A program made the translations under genes and the position numbers. A stretch of DNA of 64,000 nucleotides from Brachyspira innocens ATCC 29796 (GTDB lineage: Bacteria; Spirochaetota; Brachyspiria; Brachyspirales; Brachyspiraceae): contig NZ_ARQI01000122.1 of assembly GCF_000384655.1 (NCBI RefSeq), positions 1 to 64,000 on the forward strand, in the 5' to 3' direction. Below, piece by piece: positions 40,605 through 51,040 of the stretch; the first letter of the stretch is position 1, and each line of letters starts with the position of its first letter. Under the pieces are notes generated by a model. That model was not told where the DNA came from. It worked only from the letters and a program-made list of their open reading frames with translations, and did no database searches.

Positions 40605-40642
40605 AAAAAATCCGTAAGAGTAATTATTACTCCTATGGATTT
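40605..40642 (-). terminator. Terminator/direct repeat, left copy, ending the dynamin cassette
   Basis: A hairpin with 14-base arms (about 40611-40624 and 40626-40639) followed on the minus strand by six T residues, 16 bases after the last cassette gene. The 38 bases match 50975-51012 except at 40636 (T for C). That change turns one G-C pair into an A-C mismatch, so this is the weaker, probably derived copy. Confidence 0.85.
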
Positions 40643-40657
40643 TATAAAACAAATTAA

Positions 40658-40960
40658 TTATTTAGAAAAATCTTCATAATATTTATCTAATAATTTTTCA
40701 TCTTCTTTAATACCATATTGAGTATTTTTAATGTATTCATCATAATATTTTTCTAAAAACTTTAACGCCTTTTCATTAACCATTTTCTCATTTAAAGAAA
40801 TACTGGAATCAATGCCTATATCTAGTATTTCTTTTCCATCAGCACTTAGCAAATTATTTTTTTCAAGCCATTTAAAAATAAATTTAAAATGTTCAATAAC
40901 ATTCTTTTGATTAGCAGCATTATCTATATGCCATAATGCTTTATCAATAATTTTTGCCAT
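40658..40960 (-). CDS. Probable immunity protein for the adjacent nuclease toxin
   Basis: A 100-residue soluble helical protein without recognisable family (sequence features: ALWHIDNAANQ, FIFKWLEKNNLL, FLEKYYDEYI). Its size, acidic character, position directly after a toxin-domain gene (2-base gap) and strong GGAGAG site fit an antidote. This is inference from gene order: polymorphic toxin genes are almost always followed by a small immunity gene. No direct sequence evidence for binding. It is the last gene before the cassette terminator. Confidence 0.6.
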   Translation of the reverse strand: MAKIIDKALWHIDNAANQKNVIEHFKFIFKWLEKNNLLSADGKEILDIGIDSSISLNEKMVNEKALKFLEKYYDEYIKNTQYGIKEDEKLLDKYYEDFSK

Positions 40961-40962
40961 AA

Positions 40963-41466
40963 TTAATCTCTCCTTTCTATTCTAGTTTGTACATCTTTTG
41001 GAATTTCTATTAAATCTCCATTAGAATCTTTTATATAATTTCCTCCTTTTTCTCTAATCCTCTCTTCTTTAGCCAACTGATCAGTTTTATCTGCTGTTTG
41101 TGAAGTAACCTCAATAGAATCAACAGCTTTACCATCTTTTGTAACAACAAAATCTATTCTTCTTGCTTCACCTGTTTTATCATCTTTTACAATATTACCA
41201 TCTTTATCTCTTAGATAAGCCTCTGATTCTATTTTATATCCTTCACTTTCAGGATATTTCTCTTTCAATTCATTTTCAACTTCATTTTCTCTACGAAGAC
41301 CTTCTGCTTTGTTTTCTATAATGTTCTCATTAAACTTTTCAAATTTAGGAGTAAAATCCCTATTATTTCCTCCATAAACTTCATTTTTATTCCCAAAATT
41401 TGGAGTTAAATCTTTAGTACTATTTGAAAAATTATTATTTAAATTTTCAGAATTTTTTTCAATCAT
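40963..41466 (-). CDS. Nuclease-toxin protein (restriction-endonuclease-fold effector)
   Basis: A 167-residue protein. Residues 1-55 are Asn-rich with two similar motifs, DLTPNF (19-24) and DFTPKF (37-42), perhaps a delivery signal. Residues 57-167 resemble C-terminal toxin domains of polymorphic/contact-dependent toxins: GLRRENEVENELKEKYP, AYLRDKDG, TGEARRIDFVV, SIEVTS and the closing GGNYIKD with IEIPKDVQTRIERRD. Asp105, Glu119 and the upstream Glu would be the PD-(D/E)XK-type metal ligands. The ATG overlaps the stop codon of the ATPase gene (ATGA), and the ATPase's last codons supply GGAGG. A plausible effector of the cassette; DNase or RNase activity is inferred. Confidence 0.7.
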   Translation of the reverse strand: MIEKNSENLNNNFSNSTKDLTPNFGNKNEVYGGNNRDFTPKFEKFNENIIENKAEGLRRENEVENELKEKYPESEGYKIESEAYLRDKDGNIVKDDKTGEARRIDFVVTKDGKAVDSIEVTSQTADKTDQLAKEERIREKGGNYIKDSNGDLIEIPKDVQTRIERRD

Positions 41467-44400
41467 AATATACCTCCTTTATGAAATTTCTCAACCCAAT
41501 TATTATATGCATCTATTCTAAAAAAACCTATAAAACTAGCATGTATTAGCATTAAATTCATAGCCTCTAAAGCATATTTACTATCAAGTTCATTATTCAT
41601 ATTTGTAATATCTCTAAAAATATTATTATGCCAAATTTCAAAATCTGTATAAACTTTATTAGATGCCAATAAATCAGCACCATTTAGTATATCATATACA
41701 GCCAATGAGAGTTTTGACTTATCAGTATTTTCATTACTTAATATTTCTCTTATATTAATTTTGGCAGATTCAGCTATATTAATATCATCTAAAGAATCAA
41801 TAATATTCTTATCAATATTCTCATTAAATGATTTTTGTACTAAACACTTGAGTATATTACCCTTAGTAGATTTATTTTCTATAAAGTTTTTATCTTCTCT
41901 TTTATATGATTTTCCATCTTCGATAACATTATAATAACCAACCTTACACAAAACACTATCAGTCCAATTATTCTGATAAACTGCTGCAACTCCTGTATGA
42001 AGTCTGGATAATTCATCTATCTTATCCTCATCTAAGCCAGCCGCTTTTCCTACAGCTTCCCTATCTGAATACTCGGGAAGTCTTAGAATAATTTTCGTAT
42101 TAGTATTTCTTATGGCTGACATATCCACTGCTGAAGGTGATTGATCCGATATAATAAAACCTTCTCCATAAGTACGCATTTCAGCAATAGAGTTTGAAAG
42201 CATCTCAACTGATTTTCCTACTAAATTGGCACTTTCACTTACCTGCTCAGTAGAAGTTCTTTTTAATATATTATGAGCTTCTTCTAATATGGTAACATGT
42301 TTTAATTCTTGATTCATTTTTTGAGATGATGTTCTGTATTCAGAAAGCTTCATTATAAGTATACCCATTATCATTGATTTAGTTTCTAATGAACCTATTC
42401 TACTTAAATCAACTATAGCATTTTCATCAAACAATATTTCATTTTCTATTTCTTTAGACGAAAATATTCTTCCTATTATACCATTAGTAAGAGATTTTAC
42501 CCTTGTAACCAATGAGCCTGTATAATTACTTTTTACTTCCTGAGAATAATCAGAAGAGTCTATAACATTTTTTAAATTATTCAAAACATCTATAAAATTA
42601 GGAAATATATTGTTTCCATATTTATTAACAGATGTATCTAAATCCCAGCCCGTATCAATATAAGATTTTTCAACAGCTTCTTTTAAAACAGCAGGCATAG
42701 CAGCATACATAGGCCAGCAAACATTGAATATATCTATAAGTCTGTCAATATGTTCAAGTACATGTATACTTTCATGAAAACTAAAAGGATTAATTCTTAA
42801 AAGCTCAGTATAGTATGGATTAGTACCAAATACATGAACATCATTTCTATGACCAAATACATTTTTATATTCACCCTTAGCAGGCTCTATTACAAGAAAT
42901 TTAACATTTTTAGCATAAAATCCTTCTATGATTTTATAAACAGCATTACTTTTTCCTGCTCCTGTTGAACCTGTTATGAATGTATGCGAAGCTAAACTTT
43001 TCACATTAAGATTAACTTCTGTATTTTCTTCTTCTCCCAAATGAAATACTTTTCCTAAATTGATGCTGTTGGAATTATCTATATTGTCATAAGAAACTAT
43101 TTCTCTAGCAAAAGGAGTATATTTAATAACGGGAACGCCAGCAACACTTTTTTGAGGAAGCCCAGCCTGTATAGCCATTTCAAGACTGCTAACTGTAACA
43201 GCAGGAGAAATTAAAGGCAAATCATCTGTAAGCTTAAAAAGAGGATGATGCATCTTTGCTACATAGTTCAAAACCTCTTTTTTATTAGTATTATCATTAT
43301 TCCATAAATTAATTGCTCCTGTTTCAACAGAAGAACCCTCACCTCTTACTAAAGACTGATACATACTTGAAACAACTCTGTTAGTCTGAGCATTTCCAGT
43401 GATAAAATAAGCAGAACTTTTCCAAACACCCACATCTTCGCATTCATTAAGACGCTCTAATTGTTTGTCTATCTCTGCTAATATATTAGTTATCATCTTA
43501 TTTTCAGAAGTAATTTGTAAAGTTTTACCAGAGCCTATAGTTTTTGTAGTGCCTTCTGAAGTAGAAGAACTTGTAGTGTCAGTATCGCTATGTCCTGTAG
43601 TATCAGATTTAGATTTTCCAAAAGACTGTGCTAATCCAAAATTCAAAGCACCAAATAAACCCGCACTTAATCCGCCTGATAAAAAAGTACTAGCAGAAAC
43701 AATATAAGATATACCGGCACTAACACCTGCACTAATAAAAGCCCCTACATTACCTCCAATAGAAGTACCTGCAGAAAAAGTTGTTGTTCTTGATTTAGTT
43801 TCTGTATGAGATACACTTTCTGATACAGAATGAGAAATACCCTCTGTAAGAGTTTTTGTTACAGCATCGCTTTCATTGCTTGAAAAACTTAATTGTGTTG
43901 TTCTAAAAGGAGATAATTGACTGTAAATACTTTCATAACCATTTCTTATAATCGATATTTCATTAGGGCTTACAGGATCGGATATAATAATAACAGAATA
44001 TTTTTCCCCTTTCATCGCATCTATGAGCTTTTCTATACCTTGAGCAAAATCATTTTTTCCGTCTTCATAATCGCTCTTTTTTACTCCTGCAATAGATGAA
44101 CATGAAGAAATTATTTTATTATCCCCGTAATATTTATCAGTTAATTCTTTTATCCTAGTATTGTCAAGATTTTCTATATCACTTCCAAAGAAATTACCTT
44201 TTATAGATCTTTCTAATACTTTGCTTGAACTTGATAAAGTTTTTTCAAATGATTTTACCCCAATATAAAAATCTGTTTTCTCACCATCACTTTCTATAAT
44301 AGTAATAACAGATGAATTTGTATTATAAATAGAATGAAATACCGAAGATAATTTTACTTGATTATTTTCTTTATTTTCAAACACAATGCTGTTAATTTTA

Positions 44401-44591
44401 TAAAATCTTAAATATTCTCCTGCTTCTTTTCTGCTTATATTGTTATCCAAAGGAACAACATTTAAAGCTGTTAAATTAGGCAAATACTTTTTCATTACAA
44501 CGGTATCAACCTTTGCTAAAGCCTCTATAAGCTCTGTTTGATTTCTATTATCAAGCATCTCTGTTTTATTTTGAGTTATTATATCAGACAT
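41463..44591 (-). CDS. HerA/VirB4-like ATPase with embedded glycine-zipper hydrophobic region
   Basis: A 1042-residue P-loop ATPase of the HerA-FtsK superfamily (DUF87-type). The N-terminal part (1-235) is unrecognised. Residues 238-272 and 327-350 are Ser/Thr/His-rich and frame a hydrophobic, glycine/alanine-rich stretch (about 273-324, GTSIGGNVGAFISAGV pattern) that could span or insert in a membrane. The ATPase core has Walker A GSTGAGKS (541-548), Walker B TILEEAHN (767-774) and the late motif RNTNTKIILRLPEYSDREAVG (about 845). Residues 930-1042 are helical. Relatives pump DNA or protein (T4SS VirB4, HerA helicases). Its neighbours suggest it drives effector export or DNA targeting (inference). 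Confidence 0.82.
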   Translation of the reverse strand: MSDIITQNKTEMLDNRNQTELIEALAKVDTVVMKKYLPNLTALNVVPLDNNISRKEAGEYLRFYKINSIVFENKENNQVKLSSVFHSIYNTNSSVITIIESDGEKTDFYIGVKSFEKTLSSSSKVLERSIKGNFFGSDIENLDNTRIKELTDKYYGDNKIISSCSSIAGVKKSDYEDGKNDFAQGIEKLIDAMKGEKYSVIIISDPVSPNEISIIRNGYESIYSQLSPFRTTQLSFSSNESDAVTKTLTEGISHSVSESVSHTETKSRTTTFSAGTSIGGNVGAFISAGVSAGISYIVSASTFLSGGLSAGLFGALNFGLAQSFGKSKSDTTGHSDTDTTSSSTSEGTTKTIGSGKTLQITSENKMITNILAEIDKQLERLNECEDVGVWKSSAYFITGNAQTNRVVSSMYQSLVRGEGSSVETGAINLWNNDNTNKKEVLNYVAKMHHPLFKLTDDLPLISPAVTVSSLEMAIQAGLPQKSVAGVPVIKYTPFAREIVSYDNIDNSNSINLGKVFHLGEEENTEVNLNVKSLASHTFITGSTGAGKSNAVYKIIEGFYAKNVKFLVIEPAKGEYKNVFGHRNDVHVFGTNPYYTELLRINPFSFHESIHVLEHIDRLIDIFNVCWPMYAAMPAVLKEAVEKSYIDTGWDLDTSVNKYGNNIFPNFIDVLNNLKNVIDSSDYSQEVKSNYTGSLVTRVKSLTNGIIGRIFSSKEIENEILFDENAIVDLSRIGSLETKSMIMGILIMKLSEYRTSSQKMNQELKHVTILEEAHNILKRTSTEQVSESANLVGKSVEMLSNSIAEMRTYGEGFIISDQSPSAVDMSAIRNTNTKIILRLPEYSDREAVGKAAGLDEDKIDELSRLHTGVAAVYQNNWTDSVLCKVGYYNVIEDGKSYKREDKNFIENKSTKGNILKCLVQKSFNENIDKNIIDSLDDINIAESAKINIREILSNENTDKSKLSLAVYDILNGADLLASNKVYTDFEIWHNNIFRDITNMNNELDSKYALEAMNLMLIHASFIGFFRIDAYNNWVEKFHKGGIL

Positions 44592-44593
44592 TA

Positions 44594-44770
44594 TTAATCC
44601 TTTTTACTAAAACTATTTTTGCGGATTTCATTCACCTCATGAATATATTTTCCTGTGGCTTTAACAAACCCTTTTCCAAATTCTTCAAGCCCTTCAAAAA
44701 AATCACCAAATGAATTGAAAACATTTTCTACTGCCGACTTTCCTTTTTTCTCATAATCTTCCCTATTCAT
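44594..44770 (-). CDS. Small 58-residue protein
   Basis: A short open frame reading MNREDYEKKGKSAVENVF and ending NSFSKKD. Its ATG overlaps the stop codon of the preceding gene in an ATGA, and it ends two bases before the next ATG, so it fills the space between two cassette genes exactly. The middle (FGDFFEGLEEFGKGFVKATG) is an aromatic and Gly-rich amphipathic helix. No known family. A partner of the ATPase or the dynamins is possible (inference). Confidence 0.7.
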   Translation of the reverse strand: MNREDYEKKGKSAVENVFNSFGDFFEGLEEFGKGFVKATGKYIHEVNEIRKNSFSKKD

Positions 44771-45201
44771 TTTCCAGCGGCTATTGCTATAATTATACCT
44801 ATCACCACTACCGCCCCCACTGCTATAGCGATAGGACTTATCTTTGGGGACTCGGTGCTTCCCTCTGTATTTTTATATGATGAAGTTCTAGGAGGATAAA
44901 GTTTTGCACTCATTTTTTTTAATTGTCTTACTTTTTCCATAGTGAATTCATTTCTTAAACTTACAGCCAATTCTGTCCAATAGCTTTCAGTCCATTCGCT
45001 TTCAGGCTTAAATGTCTCGCCTTTATCTGCTGATATAAATTCAGGAACTCTTTCTTTAGCATAATTTAATATATTATCAAAATTATCTATAGAAAAAGAT
45101 CTGTCTGTATTTAATGCTATATACAATGCATTCTTTATTCCTTCTACATCCCTTTTTGCTATAAATTCATTTAAAGTATCACTAGGTTTAAAATTACTCA
45201 T
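44767..45201 (-). CDS. Tail-anchored protein of the dynamin cassette
   Basis: A 144-residue protein with a soluble helical N-terminal domain (1-95), a short Ser/Thr/Pro linker (about 104-122) and a C-terminal transmembrane segment (about 123-142, IAIAVGAVVVIGIIIAIAAG). This topology places the domain in the cytoplasm, anchored at the inner membrane. Unknown family. GGAGG precedes the ATG, 20 bases after the first dynamin gene. It may recruit the GTPases or ATPase to the membrane (inference). Confidence 0.75.
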   Translation of the reverse strand: MSNFKPSDTLNEFIAKRDVEGIKNALYIALNTDRSFSIDNFDNILNYAKERVPEFISADKGETFKPESEWTESYWTELAVSLRNEFTMEKVRQLKKMSAKLYPPRTSSYKNTEGSTESPKISPIAIAVGAVVVIGIIIAIAAGK

Positions 45202-45221: not shown

Positions 45222-47618
45222 TTATAATTCTATTACAGAATTTAATTTATTAATAAAATATTCAAGCCATAATTTATTCTTCTTGTTTTCAGCTATAAAT
45301 TTTTCTACCTGTTCCTTTGAAGAAGTCATATTTTTCAAGGAATTTATCTTATTTGAAACTACAATTTCAAGCTCATCAATCTGAGATAAAAACTTTTCCT
45401 TTATTCCTTTTATAAGTTCTTCATTTGCATATTTCTCTATTCTAACACATTCTTTCTGTACATTATCAAATATTTTTGTTAATATATCATTATTATACTC
45501 TAATATATCAAATTTATCAGTAATATTTATATTAATAAAAGGAATTATACCAAATTTTTTGAAACTTACACCCTTGCCTTTGATATGCTTATCCATACCA
45601 GAACGAATATCATTAATTGAAGAATCAAATAAATCATTAAACTGGAAATCAGATTTATCTCTTTCAAATCCATCTATATCGATTTCTTCTAATAAAGAAT
45701 TTATTTCTTTTCTGTATTCATCTATCATAGTATTTGAAAATTCTATTATATCAGAATATATTTGAGATTCAATTTCTGCAGAAAAACTTATTAATATCTC
45801 TTTTACTATTTCTTCAAATCTTCTTATATATTCTTCCCCTTTTGACTTACTTACAATATATGGATCATTATTTCCTGCCAAAGCCCCAAAAATACCGCCT
45901 ATACCTAATGCTGCTCCCACTACTGCTAATGGAGCAAAGGCAAGTGCAGCAGGTATAGCAGCTAAAGCCGGTATGGCAGCTGCTGCTTTAGCTAAAGTAG
46001 GTAAAGGTTTACCAACAATAGATTCAACAATATAATTAACTTCATTATACAATCTATCTCCAACATCTCCAACTATTATATTTAGTTCATTATCTATTTT
46101 TTTAGATATATCAAGTTCCTCTATCCTTTTTTTATATTCTTTTCCTCTATTGCCGTCTGCTATCTGCTTATTTATATATGCTATTTTTTCATTAAACTCT
46201 TTAAGTTTAGCCTCATTACCTGAAAGAGCATCAGCAATATTATTTTCCATATTTCTTTCTTTAATATAACCAATAAAAGTATTTACACCTTTTGTTATTT
46301 TCTCAGCCATTGCATACTTTTCCAAATAATCATTTATAGCAATCTCTACTGCAGGTATGCCTGAATGAACTAGTAAAGTATCAAGCTCATCTTCTGCATT
46401 GTTTAACATTGCATTTATTTTATCATGTCCGCTCTTTGAAAGTGATGCATATTTGGAAAGATGAAGTTCATCAAACTTTTCAAATAATGATTTTATAGTT
46501 TCAAAATCCCCTTCTTGTTTTATGCTAAGTTTATCATTCTTTTTTTTAAGTTTTGTAATCAAAGCTGCCTGAGCCGATACTAAATATATATTAGGTTTTT
46601 CTATTCTGTGTGATTTTAAATATGAAACAACATCATTATATACTTCTTTGATAGAATCTCCAGCTTCTAAATCAAATGTATCTAATTTATTTACTACAAA
46701 TAAAAATCTGTCTTTGGCCTGTTTGCCTGCCTTCTCCATTGCTTTTGAAACTGAAGATAAAAGCAAATTATCATCATTAGTAGAAAGCTGCGTAGCATTA
46801 AGTACATATAATACTAAAGGCTCTGATTCATTTATAACTTTATATGTTTTTTCTTTATGTCTTTCATCTCTTGAATTATTTGGTCCTGGTGTATCAAGTA
46901 AAACAAGCTCCAAATTATGAGATGATACAAATGGAATATCTGTTTTTATATCTATATATGAAACTTTTTCATTATCATTAAACTCTCTCATATCTTTTAC
47001 TGTAACATTAGAAACTTCATCAATTACAATATTTTCATTGGCATCTCTACATATAACAGAAGTACCTTCCATACCGTCTACATCTCTAATTCTTGCTATT
47101 GTAGCAGTACAAGCCTTATTTTTTGAAGGCATTAATTCTCTGCCTAAAAATGAATTTAAAAGTGTGGATTTTCCGCTGCTCATAGTGGCTATTACAGCAA
47201 GTTCAAATTCCTTTCCTATAGCTTCATTGAACTGCTCAGTAACTTTTTCTTCTTTTAATTCTTCAAAAGGACTAGTAGTTATCATGTAGCCAAATAGTTC
47301 TTTTAACTCTTTTAATCTGTCATCTACAGAACGCACTTGTTGATGTACTATAGTAATATTTGTATTATTAACTTTATTAAAATTATCAACCTCAAGCTGT
47401 AAATCCTCATAATCAAGTACAGTACCTTTAAAAGTTAAATTAAAGTTATCATTTATATTTTCATAAAGTATGGTAATTAATTGATCAAGCCAAAACTGAA
47501 GTCTTTTTCTGCTGTTTATATATTCATAAATTTTAGACTCAGTATCAAACTTTTCTCCGTCTTCTTTTACTATAAACTCTAATGTGAAAGGATTATATTC
47601 TATATATATTTCTTTCAT
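45222..47618 (-). CDS. Dynamin-like GTPase A, with membrane segment
   Basis: A 798-residue bacterial dynamin-like protein. An N-terminal helical domain of about 120 residues precedes the GTPase domain: G1 ATMSSGKST (about 144-152), G2 threonine in ACTATI (about 171), G3 LDTPGPNNSRDERHK (about 241), G4 FVVNKLDTF (about 307-315). Helical stalk regions surround a hydrophobic Ala/Gly-rich segment (about 540-582, AIPALAAIPAALAFAPLAVVG), the expected membrane paddle. Bacterial dynamins remodel or fuse membranes by GTP-driven assembly. Its start codon overlaps the stop codon of dynamin B (TAATG). Confidence 0.9.
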   Translation of the reverse strand: MKEIYIEYNPFTLEFIVKEDGEKFDTESKIYEYINSRKRLQFWLDQLITILYENINDNFNLTFKGTVLDYEDLQLEVDNFNKVNNTNITIVHQQVRSVDDRLKELKELFGYMITTSPFEELKEEKVTEQFNEAIGKEFELAVIATMSSGKSTLLNSFLGRELMPSKNKACTATIARIRDVDGMEGTSVICRDANENIVIDEVSNVTVKDMREFNDNEKVSYIDIKTDIPFVSSHNLELVLLDTPGPNNSRDERHKEKTYKVINESEPLVLYVLNATQLSTNDDNLLLSSVSKAMEKAGKQAKDRFLFVVNKLDTFDLEAGDSIKEVYNDVVSYLKSHRIEKPNIYLVSAQAALITKLKKKNDKLSIKQEGDFETIKSLFEKFDELHLSKYASLSKSGHDKINAMLNNAEDELDTLLVHSGIPAVEIAINDYLEKYAMAEKITKGVNTFIGYIKERNMENNIADALSGNEAKLKEFNEKIAYINKQIADGNRGKEYKKRIEELDISKKIDNELNIIVGDVGDRLYNEVNYIVESIVGKPLPTLAKAAAAIPALAAIPAALAFAPLAVVGAALGIGGIFGALAGNNDPYIVSKSKGEEYIRRFEEIVKEILISFSAEIESQIYSDIIEFSNTMIDEYRKEINSLLEEIDIDGFERDKSDFQFNDLFDSSINDIRSGMDKHIKGKGVSFKKFGIIPFININITDKFDILEYNNDILTKIFDNVQKECVRIEKYANEELIKGIKEKFLSQIDELEIVVSNKINSLKNMTSSKEQVEKFIAENKKNKLWLEYFINKLNSVIEL

Positions 47619-49192
47619 TATTCACTCCCATTTATTTCTTTATTTATTATATTTCTAATTAAATTAATAGATGTCTTATTAAGCATATCATTTATTTTTT
47701 TTGTGCTGTATTTATTATTTTTCATAATAATATATTCTTCTTCAGTATTTATACTATTATCAATATTATCATATAATTTATAATCTTTATAATATGAAGG
47801 AAGATTCATTCTATCATCTTCAAAAATATTATAAAATGTATTAAAAGATCCTCTCTCTTTAATAGTAAGCTCTTCAGATTTCAATATTTTTCTAAACACT
47901 CTTGCAGCATCAGCTGATAAAGGTATTATTATAGGAGAAGTAAAACCAACATTTTCAATATCTTTTTTTACAGTATCAATTATTTCTTCTATAGTTTCTC
48001 CGCTTTCAAAATCGCAGTCATCAATTTTATTTATCAAAAATAATATTTTAGCATTCTTGTTTTTATTATATGCTTCATACACATTATTCATCATAGCATA
48101 ATTATCATTTGTGGTAGGATTATGAGCATTAATTAAATATATAAATAAATCTATTTTACTGTTTTCTAAAAACTGATTTGTTATATTCCCATGCTTTTCA
48201 TTTCTAGAATTATTAGCTCCCGGAGTATCATGAATAACTAATATTCCTTTTTTTGAATGTATATATTTAATATCTGTTTCTAAAAATATATGATCCACAT
48301 CATCATTATTATTCCATTCTTCTATTACTTGTTTTGTTATCTCATTTGAAAATATATAAGACTTATTATCATCTAATGAGCAGCCGCCAAATATTTTATC
48401 TTCCATATTATCATTGTCGCTTATAGAAGTTATTTTAGCAGTACATGCTTCATTTTTTGAAGGTATAAAATCTTTATTTAGAATAGCATTTATAAAAGTT
48501 GATTTTCCTGCACTCATAGTTGCAAATACACCTACATTATAGACTGGAAGCGATATATAGTTAGTTATTATCTTCACATTCTTAAGCAAATCATCAGACA
48601 ATTCTATCAAATTTTTATTATTAGAGCTTACTATCAAATTTTCTAATTGAGTTCCTAGTTCTTTAAAATTACATGTGCATAAAATATCTTTTAATTTTTC
48701 AAATAGTATATTTTCTTCTTTATTTAATTTGAAATAAGTAATAAGTTTATTAATGTCTTCATTTACAATATGATTTTTAATATTTTTCCTATCATCAATA
48801 GCTATAATCAAATACCTTATAAATAATAATTCAAATAAGAAGAATATTCTAAAATTATACTTTTTTATCCCTAAAAACGGAATTATATCAATAAAAAAAT
48901 TACCAGTTTTTAATTTCTCTTTATAACCATTCAAAATAGTATTTATATCATTATCAATCTGATTATCATTAGGAAAATTATAATCTTTAAAATTCAAATG
49001 ATTAGCATAAGAATGAAGAAACAAATATAATGAACTATCCTCTGAAATATCCATATCTTTCAAATAGTATGAAAGTAAATTAATAAAAGAAAATCTTATA
49101 TTATCATTAAAATATAATAATTTTAAATTTTTAAGTGATATTCTAAAAAGCATAAGCTTATTATTAAGCATAATTGAATTAATTTTATTCAT
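47618..49192 (-). CDS. Dynamin-like GTPase B
   Basis: A 524-residue dynamin-family GTPase with a long N-terminal extension of about 210 residues that includes one hydrophobic stretch (about 112-132, YNFRIFFLFELLFIRYLIIAI type). GTPase motifs: G1 ATMSAGKST (about 224-232), G2 ACTAKI, G3 HDTPGANNSRNEKHG (about 321), G4 LFLINKIDD (about 384-392). No C-terminal stalk or paddle follows, so it probably works as the partner of GTPase A. Bacterial dynamins commonly occur as unequal pairs (LeoB/LeoC of E. coli, Cj-DLP1/2). Its sequence is clearly divergent from A and C. Confidence 0.88.
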   Translation of the reverse strand: MNKINSIMLNNKLMLFRISLKNLKLLYFNDNIRFSFINLLSYYLKDMDISEDSSLYLFLHSYANHLNFKDYNFPNDNQIDNDINTILNGYKEKLKTGNFFIDIIPFLGIKKYNFRIFFLFELLFIRYLIIAIDDRKNIKNHIVNEDINKLITYFKLNKEENILFEKLKDILCTCNFKELGTQLENLIVSSNNKNLIELSDDLLKNVKIITNYISLPVYNVGVFATMSAGKSTFINAILNKDFIPSKNEACTAKITSISDNDNMEDKIFGGCSLDDNKSYIFSNEITKQVIEEWNNNDDVDHIFLETDIKYIHSKKGILVIHDTPGANNSRNEKHGNITNQFLENSKIDLFIYLINAHNPTTNDNYAMMNNVYEAYNKNKNAKILFLINKIDDCDFESGETIEEIIDTVKKDIENVGFTSPIIIPLSADAARVFRKILKSEELTIKERGSFNTFYNIFEDDRMNLPSYYKDYKLYDNIDNSINTEEEYIIMKNNKYSTKKINDMLNKTSINLIRNIINKEINGSE

Positions 49193-49277
49193 AACTTACT
49201 CTAAAATAAATATTGTATTATAATAACATAAAACATAAATAATACAAGTAGTTTTATATATTTTTACATATAAAAGG

Positions 49278-50888
49278 TTATAATTCTATTATATTTATAA
49301 CTTTATCAATAAAATCATCGAGCCAAATTTTATTAATTTTAATTTCTTTTACACGGTTTTCTATACTTTCTGCATTTCTGATAATACCTCTAAGGACATT
49401 AAGTTTTTCATAAATACCGTCATATTTGTCTACTAGCTTAACCTCATCTGATATTCTTCTATTAAACTTTTTAAGTTTCATCTCATTTTCTAGAAGAGCT
49501 GCAGCAATATTATTTTCAATGTTCTTCTCTTTGATATAGCCAATAAAAATGTTTACACCTTTTCTTATTTTTTCAGTAATTACATACTTTTCTAAATAGT
49601 CATTTATAGCAATTTCTACTGCAGGTACACCTGAATGGACTAGTAAAGTATCAAGCTCATCTTCTGCATGTTTTAACATTTCATTTATTTTATCATGTCC
49701 TCTATTTGAAAGAGATGCATATTTGGAAAGATGAAGTTCATCAAACTCTTCAAATAATGATTTTATAATTTCAAAATCCCCTTCTTGTTTTATGCTAAGT
49801 TTATCATTCTTTTTTTTAAGTTTTGTAATCAAAGCTGTCTGAGCTGATACTAAATATATATTAGGATTTACTATTCCATGACTTTTTAAATATGAAATAA
49901 CATCTTCGCGTACTTTCTCTATAGAATCTCCTGCCTCTAAATCGAAAGCATCTATCTTATTTACTACAAATAAAAACCTGTCTTTAGCCTGTTTGCCTGC
50001 CTTTTCCATTGCTCTTAAAACTGAAGATAAAAGTAAATTATCATCATTTGTAGAAAGCTGTGTAGCATTAAGTACATATAATACTAAAGCATTCGATTCA
50101 TTTATAACTTTATATGTTTTTTCTTTATGTCTTTCATCTCTTGAGTTATTTGGTCCTGGGGTATCAATTAAAACAACATCAAAATTATGAGATGATACAA
50201 ATGGAATATCTGTTTTTATATCTATATATGATACTTTTTCATTATCATTAAACTCTTTCATATTTTCTACAGTTATATCTGTAACTTCATTTATTACTAC
50301 ATTTTCTTTATCATCTAAACATATAGCAGAAGCCCCTTCCATACCGTCTACATCTCTAATTCTTACTATTGTAGCAGTACAAGCCTGATTCTTTGAAGGC
50401 ATTAATTCTCTGCCCAAAAATGCATTTAAAAGAGTAGATTTTCCGCTGCTCATAGTAGCTACTACAGCAAGTTCAAATTCTTTTCCTATATCTTCATTGA
50501 ACTGCTCAATAATTTTTTCTTCTTTTAATTCTTCAAAAGGAGCTGTATCTATCATATAGCTAAATAAATATTTTAATTCCTTTAATCTGTCATATACAGA
50601 ACGCACCTGTTCATGTACTAAAGTTATATTTGTATTATTAACTTTATTAAAATGCTCAACCTCAAGCTGTAAATCTTCATAATCTAGTATAGTACCTTTA
50701 AAAGTTATATTAAAGGTATCATTAATATTTTCATAAAGTATAATAATTAATTTGTCAAGCCAAAACTGAAGTCTTTTTCTGCTGTTTATATATTCATAAA
50801 TTTTAGACTCAGTATCAAATTTTTCTCCGTCTTCTTTTACTATAAGCTCTAATGTAAAAGGATTATATTCTATATATATTTCTTTCAT
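49278..50888 (-). CDS. Dynamin-like GTPase C, paddle-less paralogue of A
   Basis: A 536-residue protein nearly identical to GTPase A over the first 470 residues (only 4 changes in the first 60), with the same G1 ATMSSGKST, G3 IDTPGPNNSRDERHK and G4 FVVNKIDAF. It then jumps to a short coiled stretch and a tail (NKIWLDDFIDKVINIIEL) resembling the extreme C-terminus of A, omitting about 260 residues including the membrane paddle. It is the first gene of the cassette; no strong ribosome-binding site is visible before the ATG. It is either a functional soluble variant or a decaying duplicate. Confidence 0.85.
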   Translation of the reverse strand: MKEIYIEYNPFTLELIVKEDGEKFDTESKIYEYINSRKRLQFWLDKLIIILYENINDTFNITFKGTILDYEDLQLEVEHFNKVNNTNITLVHEQVRSVYDRLKELKYLFSYMIDTAPFEELKEEKIIEQFNEDIGKEFELAVVATMSSGKSTLLNAFLGRELMPSKNQACTATIVRIRDVDGMEGASAICLDDKENVVINEVTDITVENMKEFNDNEKVSYIDIKTDIPFVSSHNFDVVLIDTPGPNNSRDERHKEKTYKVINESNALVLYVLNATQLSTNDDNLLLSSVLRAMEKAGKQAKDRFLFVVNKIDAFDLEAGDSIEKVREDVISYLKSHGIVNPNIYLVSAQTALITKLKKKNDKLSIKQEGDFEIIKSLFEEFDELHLSKYASLSNRGHDKINEMLKHAEDELDTLLVHSGVPAVEIAINDYLEKYVITEKIRKGVNIFIGYIKEKNIENNIAAALLENEMKLKKFNRRISDEVKLVDKYDGIYEKLNVLRGIIRNAESIENRVKEIKINKIWLDDFIDKVINIIEL

Positions 50889-50974: not shown

Positions 50975-51012
50975 AAAAAATCCGTAAGAGTAATTATTAC
51001 TCCTACGGATTT
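50975..51012 (-). terminator. V-ATPase operon terminator / right copy of the 38-bp repeat
   Basis: A hairpin with 14-base arms that pairs completely in the minus-strand RNA (one G-U), followed by six T residues, 29 bases after the atpK stop codon. The plus-strand RNA would carry an A-C mismatch, so the minus strand is the functional one. Nearly identical to 40605-40642 (37 of 38 bases). Confidence 0.88.
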
Positions 51013-51040
51013 CTATTTATTCACTTTTATTATTACTTAA

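Follow-up and report, generated by a model that had tools for sequence, protein, structure and literature searches.

Most bacterial dynamins are encoded as operon pairs whose roles are poorly known. The window analysed here, a stretch of 64,000 nucleotides (29% G+C) from a contig of Brachyspira innocens ATCC 29796, encodes three dynamin-like GTPases, named A, B and C. The main subjects of this text are C, a short paralogue of A, and the mobile module to which gene neighbourhoods assign all three. In spirochaetes, Firmicutes and a proteobacterial plasmid, this module links a dynamin pair with a motor ATPase and with a cassette of nuclease and immunity protein, so that a concrete job can be tested for such dynamins. 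Among the described systems, paired bacterial dynamins have been found to co-assemble, as Cj-DLP1 and Cj-DLP2 of Campylobacter jejuni do (PMC6104087). Like the genes of the window, these encode operon-paired, non-identical dynamin-like GTPases, the longer member having an N-terminal globular domain of ~120 aa before the G domain. Unlike C, both C. jejuni proteins have trunks, and the part of that report consulted describes no third trunkless copy, no gene conversion and no HerA, nuclease or immunity partner. Several dynamin-like proteins are also found together in LeoABC of enterotoxigenic Escherichia coli, which is encoded on an island and has been linked by its authors to vesicle release (PMC4159319). 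LeoBC, however, is one dynamin split in two, the sequence similarity to the Brachyspira proteins is low, and the accessible pages mention neither a HerA ATPase nor a nuclease/immunity pair (PMC4159319). The PADLOC LeoA profile gives weak and partial matches only, covering 119 (C) and 97 (B) residues of LeoA, and a full-length match to LeoA or LeoBC was not found.

The HerA-DUF4297 system is reportedly a two-component defence complex of a HerA-superfamily ATPase and a nuclease. The module likewise encodes such an ATPase together with a nuclease, but to these two it adds genes for dynamins, a membrane protein and immunity, and the HerA profile matches of the window ATPase lie far below the family cut-offs. 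In polymorphic toxin systems swappable nuclease domains (LHH, WHH, NucA) are found beside cognate immunity genes such as SUKH (PMC3482391), and this is also seen in the module, where interchangeable Endonuclea_NS_2, LHH and WHH/colicin-DNase toxins with immunity genes occupy one conserved context. The survey of these systems never mentions dynamin, and it assigns the HerA/FtsK ATPase to type VII secretion (PMC3482391). No WXG or LXG family match was found on the effectors scanned, no such protein was identified in the module, and its ATPase matches DUF87/HerA. A search of part of the literature for dynamin together with HerA, SUKH or polymorphic toxins found no description of the combination. 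Taken singly, the elements are already known, as dynamin pairs, as nuclease/SUKH cassettes and as HerA-nuclease complexes.

The three GTPase genes are all on the minus strand and have intact open reading frames. C (49278-50888, 536 aa, Dynamin_N E=4e-21) consists of an N-terminal adaptor domain, a dynamin G domain and neck helices, and lacks both trunk and paddle. B (47618-49192, 524 aa, Dynamin_N E=3e-17) is a short divergent dynamin-like GTPase with 95% aa identity to B of B. hampsonii, and its stop codon overlaps the start codon of A (TAATG). A (45222-47618, 798 aa, Dynamin_N E=5e-19) is a long dynamin-like GTPase with a trunk and an Ala-rich hydrophobic segment. All three Dynamin_N matches are above the Pfam gathering score and, together with the reading frame positions, they confirm that a divergent GTPase separates A and C, as a preliminary description of this DNA had stated. 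The G1, G3 and G4 motifs are intact, with ATMSSGKST, DTPGPNN and NKxD found in both A and C.

The homology between A and C is far above chance; it starts 6 nt 5' of both ATGs and continues without gaps for 1449 nt at 89.4% identity. Over codons 1-481 the two genes are 89.3% identical at the nucleotide and 83.8% at the amino acid level, with 154 nucleotide differences and NG86 rates of 0.084 for nonsynonymous (dN) and 0.26 for synonymous (dS) substitutions, so that "nearly identical", as the preliminary description put it, was an overstatement. The two copies are direct repeats 3.27 kb apart and able to recombine, as had been proposed. At about codon 477-480 the identity drops abruptly to background, and this sharp end is found at the same place in B. 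hampsonii. What C lacks of A is residues 481-742 (45393-46178, minus strand), comprising trunk and hydrophobic tip; these ~262 codons agree well with the roughly 260 first noted. The C tail (residues 481-536; 49281-49448, minus strand) does match the end of A, but the similarity is weaker than had been described, 36% over 56 residues with a 57-nt match at 77%.

Comparison with the other Brachyspira genomes, 26 in the set used, shows C to be an established, selectively maintained short paralogue of A, and the A/C pair to be old. B. hampsonii 30446 (G006) has the same C-B-A order at the same site and the same C breakpoint. In the following, A0 and C0 denote the genes of the window, A6 and C6 those of G006. 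Between the two genomes the C tails have 92-93% identity (93% aa for the tail given above), while they are only 33-37% identical to the A tails of these two genomes and 22-24% to those of G014, G016 and G022. Since order, breakpoint and tail are shared, the origin of C, or its loss elsewhere, predates the divergence of the modules of the window and B. hampsonii. G022 has B-A, and G014 and G016 have A alone. In two further genomes, G023 and G024, the gene directly 3' of the V-ATPase genes is of the B type found in the window, and C is missing in front of it. The C0-C6 tail has dN 0.028 and dS 0.166 (dN/dS ~0.17), and the body dN 0.104 and dS 0.29 (~0.36), compared with ~0.08 for B. These ratios indicate that C is under purifying selection, and decay, which was envisaged earlier as a possible outcome, is ruled out by the intact frame and motifs.

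The preliminary description read C as the product of a recent duplication of A followed by trunk deletion. The 84% aa and 89% nt identity over 480 ungapped codons would fit this, but the presence of the same C with the same tail in B. hampsonii contradicts it; the occurrence of a C-type gene in another strain, named at the time as evidence for an old paralogue, is thus partly borne out, by this one orthologue. Moreover, the A/C tail is only 36% identical as against 84% for the body, and the body is made up of alternating tracts of opposite ancestry. Given the orthologue and the conversion tracts, a recent duplication is so improbable that it can be considered ruled out. An assembly artefact is also unlikely, since two independent assemblies give the same order and the longest identical A/C runs are only 69 nt in the window and 142 nt in G006, too short for read collapse to be likely, as judged from the assemblies.

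The similarity of the first 477 codons of A and C is shown by the four-gene comparison to be kept up by repeated gene conversion; the two genes look alike because conversion tracts repeatedly homogenise them. Of the four-way informative sites in codons 1-477, 62 unite A with C of the same genome, 45 unite the two A genes and the two C genes, and two give the third grouping. These classes alternate in 10 runs, compared with 53 expected and a minimum of 34 in 20,000 permutations. The strongest tract covers gene nt 1048-1143, directly 3' of the G5 motif (46476-46571 in A and 49746-49841 in C, both minus strand). Within nt 1021-1170, A and C of the same genome have 2-3 differences per 90 nt, whereas A-A and C-C comparisons between the genomes have 21-25 (A0/A6 21-24 in the tract itself). 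Longest-run permutation tests gave P<=1e-4 for both A0-C0 and A6-C6, and the tracts are significant at third positions too. Trees of the "O" tracts and of the tail unite C0 and C6 at 100%, while that of the "P" tracts separates A0+C0 from A6+C6 at 81%. Recombination between the repeats, predicted to delete B or fuse A and C, has thus taken place in the form of gene conversion, while in none of the genomes compared was B seen to have been deleted from between the two.

Conversion tracts and fixed sites together suggest which dynamin surfaces stay matched and which may specialise. Of the 45 fixed A/C differences, 26 are in the predicted neck (residues 98-136 and 395-477, helices placed from weak AlphaFold2 models), compared with two of the 62 species-shared sites. 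The Fisher value of 1e-10 for this enrichment overstates the evidence because the sites are clustered in ten tracts. No fixed difference is found in the N-terminal domain or in the segment after G5, and the species-shared sites concentrate in the adaptor and the post-G5 segment. The pattern fits a shared adaptor/G-domain surface combined with specialised necks. The 3' half of A (45222-46178) has a different history; its dS between the window and B. hampsonii is 0.079, while HerA, B and most flanking genes have values of 0.26-0.46, and this points to a probable recent exchange of the 3' part of A between lineages.

When it comes to the trunk, A is the only one of the three GTPases with both a trunk and a membrane tip. 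C stops 56 residues past the neck helix and has neither a trunk or stalk with a membrane-binding tip nor any hydrophobic segment, and for this reason it is called a trunkless dynamin paralogue here. The Ala-rich hydrophobic paddle of A covers residues ~545-600 (45819-45986, minus strand; Kyte-Doolittle 2.17 at residues 549-567). Only the A proteins of the window and B. hampsonii have a paddle-like trunk segment, and none is present in eight other A-type proteins (those of G014, G016, G022, Treponema, Lactococcus, E. coli and two other spirochaetes). From this distribution the paddle looks like a gain in A of this lineage, and loss of an ancestral paddle from C is unsupported. The "precise loss of the membrane paddle" originally seen in C is accordingly not what the genes display, as the whole 262-residue trunk is missing.

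AlphaFold2 models were built from six sequences. The C model has a G domain and a neck closed by a short C-terminal helix, and its best neighbours in the PDB (Foldseek, E 1e-8 to 3e-7) are truncated mitofusins, BDLP, Cj-DLP1/2 and the minimal GTPase domain of SynDLP. The A model, which is weak, gave no reliable full-length structural match. The minimal GTPase domains made from mitofusin and SynDLP (PDB 5gom, 5yew, 9em9) share with C a layout in which G domain and neck are kept and the trunk is missing; these constructs are laboratory truncations, while the gene of C occurs in nature and additionally encodes an N-terminal adaptor domain. With its predicted adaptor, G domain and neck, C thus resembles a natural minimal GTPase domain dynamin, the counterpart of what crystallographers have built.

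We consider the best explanation to be effector delivery by the HerA module, with C as a trunkless assembly partner of A, at a probability of roughly 45%. A HerA hexamer would move the nuclease effector across or along a membrane and recognise it by a repeated N-terminal linear motif, while a complex of the adaptor-dynamins B and A would position or remodel that membrane. C might form pairs with A by way of the G-domain and adaptor surfaces that both have in common and, having no membrane tip, limit or tune assembly, conversion serving to keep the two compatible. Co-assembly of C and A is plausible because of the homogenised surfaces and the structural neighbours of C, and the idea of pairing comes from heterotypic bacterial dynamins (PMC6104087). 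The idea of secretion stems partly from LeoABC and vesicle release (PMC4159319). Several points weigh against this explanation. C is known here from its gene alone, and the C-A pairing and effector export are steps that we infer. The models are weak, with a mean predicted local distance difference test (pLDDT) score of 55.6 for C and 57.6 for A and template modelling (TM) scores of at most 0.4. The effector and immunity candidates of the window have sub-threshold family matches only, and Pfam scans found no secretion or trafficking domain on the effectors. Furthermore, C is present in just two of the 26 Brachyspira genomes, which means that the module works without it, and conversion can arise passively where similar repeats lie close together. 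The last two points would also suit C being a by-product, a partial duplication of A that has no role of its own and undergoes conversion because it lies close to A, as would the higher dN/dS of the C body than of B. Such an origin is nevertheless unlikely, given that frame and GTPase motifs are intact in two lineages, that the tail is strongly conserved and that the fixed A/C differences gather in the neck instead of being scattered.

As a further alternative, the module may act inside the cell as a defence against phages or plasmids. HerA and the adaptor-dynamins would then sense a disturbance of membrane or DNA and release a nuclease that its immunity protein normally holds in check, C being a regulatory subunit. 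HerA pairs with nucleases in known defence complexes, and DynA of Bacillus subtilis reportedly gives phage resistance at the population level. Module proteins also give weak LeoA, mad8 and HerA matches in PADLOC, WYL regulators, an Abi gene and McrC are found near plasmid copies of the module, and leucine-rich-repeat proteins can take the dynamin's place beside HerA. Still, the effectors are of the colicin-DNase/WHH, LHH and Endonuclea_NS_2 types, several with SUKH, a pairing that has been described for exported polymorphic toxins (PMC3482391), and the effector type varies between species while HerA is constant. Intracellular defence is considered less probable than delivery. Returning to effector delivery, a more general form of it can be put forward tentatively. 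A HerA motor and a constant adaptor domain, carried by dynamins or leucine-rich-repeat proteins, might deliver colicin-type nucleases with a repeated tag, and two Brachyspira lineages might have added the minimal dynamin C, its mating surfaces locked to A by conversion.

The membership of A, B and C in a mobile module of dynamin(s), membrane protein, HerA/DUF87 ATPase, nuclease effector and immunity protein is shown by gene neighbourhood in several phyla, the window effector and immunity protein being placed by position. Downstream of A, on the same strand, a 144-aa protein (44767-45201) has a C-terminal transmembrane helix (Kyte-Doolittle 3.07 at residue 124) and is predicted to be tail-anchored; similar proteins are found in other modules, and its EssA match (E=0.02) is below cut-off. 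A small open reading frame, translating to 58 aa (44594-44770, minus strand), separates it from the HerA/DUF87 ATPase (41463-44591, minus strand; DUF87 E=2e-14, NF033849 below cut-off). At residues ~235-360 the ATPase has a Ser-rich insertion with Gly-rich hydrophobic stretches, whose length varies widely across species. Such an insertion is unusual inside a HerA-type ATPase and is possibly membrane-inserting. The candidate nuclease effector (40963-41466, minus strand; PDDEXK_4 E=0.1) and the candidate immunity protein of 100 aa (40658-40960, minus strand; DUF7832 E=0.001) have matches below cut-off, so that their identity depends on position and context. In other modules the effector slot holds LHH, WHH/colicin-DNase or Endonuclea_NS_2 proteins, differing between species behind the same HerA, and SUKH proteins are found beside several of them.

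The effector N-termini contain tandem short motifs (DLTPNF, KGLGPN, F-[DN]-P-D-A-[KR], DTSKPLDFS), which are lineage-specific and similar in layout. Besides the DLTPNF-type motif of the window effector, they are found in L016:4189-5187, L017:13907-14452, L046:2065-2739 and L049:7002-7700. A function as recognition or export tag is possible.

Close HerA relatives are encoded on plasmids, namely Treponema saccharophilum pTS2, the conjugative Lactococcus cremoris pF27B and the E. coli IncI plasmid pTW10590_133. The gene order there is short dynamin, long dynamin, hypothetical protein, HerA, HNH-type nuclease and immunity candidate, and the short-long dynamin pair is kept in all three hosts. The plasmid version is present in one of 5426 E. 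coli genomes. HerA of this type occurs in 10 of 393 spirochaete genomes, and every complete A-type gene in these 393 genomes adjoins HerA. In Exiguobacterium and Ruminococcus the dynamin slot holds a protein that shares just the N-terminal domain of A, and one spirochaete has a fusion of this domain with leucine-rich repeats (LRR_5) and a zinc ribbon. The dynamin part of the module therefore looks interchangeable from these gene arrangements. The domain is found without a GTPase beside HerA in L046:194-1582, L046:5923-7305, L048:11161-12999, L042:7049-9025 and L043:7339-8970, where it is joined to LRR_5 and zinc ribbon, to a coiled coil or to regions of no known family. A phage origin was considered and rejected, as scans of IMG/VR, one of them using Brachyspira-specific patterns, found no module relatives. 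Two unannotated "Bacteriophage sp." scaffolds match HerA.

The module is flanked on the left by the terminator hairpin of the V-ATPase operon (50976-51014) and on the right by a second copy of it (40605-40645, 37/38 identical), both on the minus strand. Exactly these two copies are found in the 3.28 Mb genome, and B. hampsonii likewise has two, which share a variant of their own. The hairpins could act as recombination or integration borders. Empty sites in G004 and G005 have one hairpin followed directly by DUF1349 and dnaX, and these sites, together with the flanking repeats, make loss of the whole module possible in principle. In its flanks the window resembles Brachyspira sp. G79 more closely (98% for V-ATPase subunit I) than B. 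hampsonii (90%); in G79 only a decayed A of another type (~50%) is left at the site. The module may thus have been passed on either by descent or by transfer, as the flanks point to G79 while the module is shared with B. hampsonii. The module is repeatedly decaying at the V-ATPase site, as judged from the gene remains. Broken genes at this site include the A-type gene of G79 (L020:8295-9080) and a B-type gene in G024 (L021:3902-5370). In G018 (L076), another Brachyspira, the same V-ATPase hotspot holds a dynamin-like gene of a different kind 3' of atpK, whose product has a hydrophobic stretch at the C-terminus.

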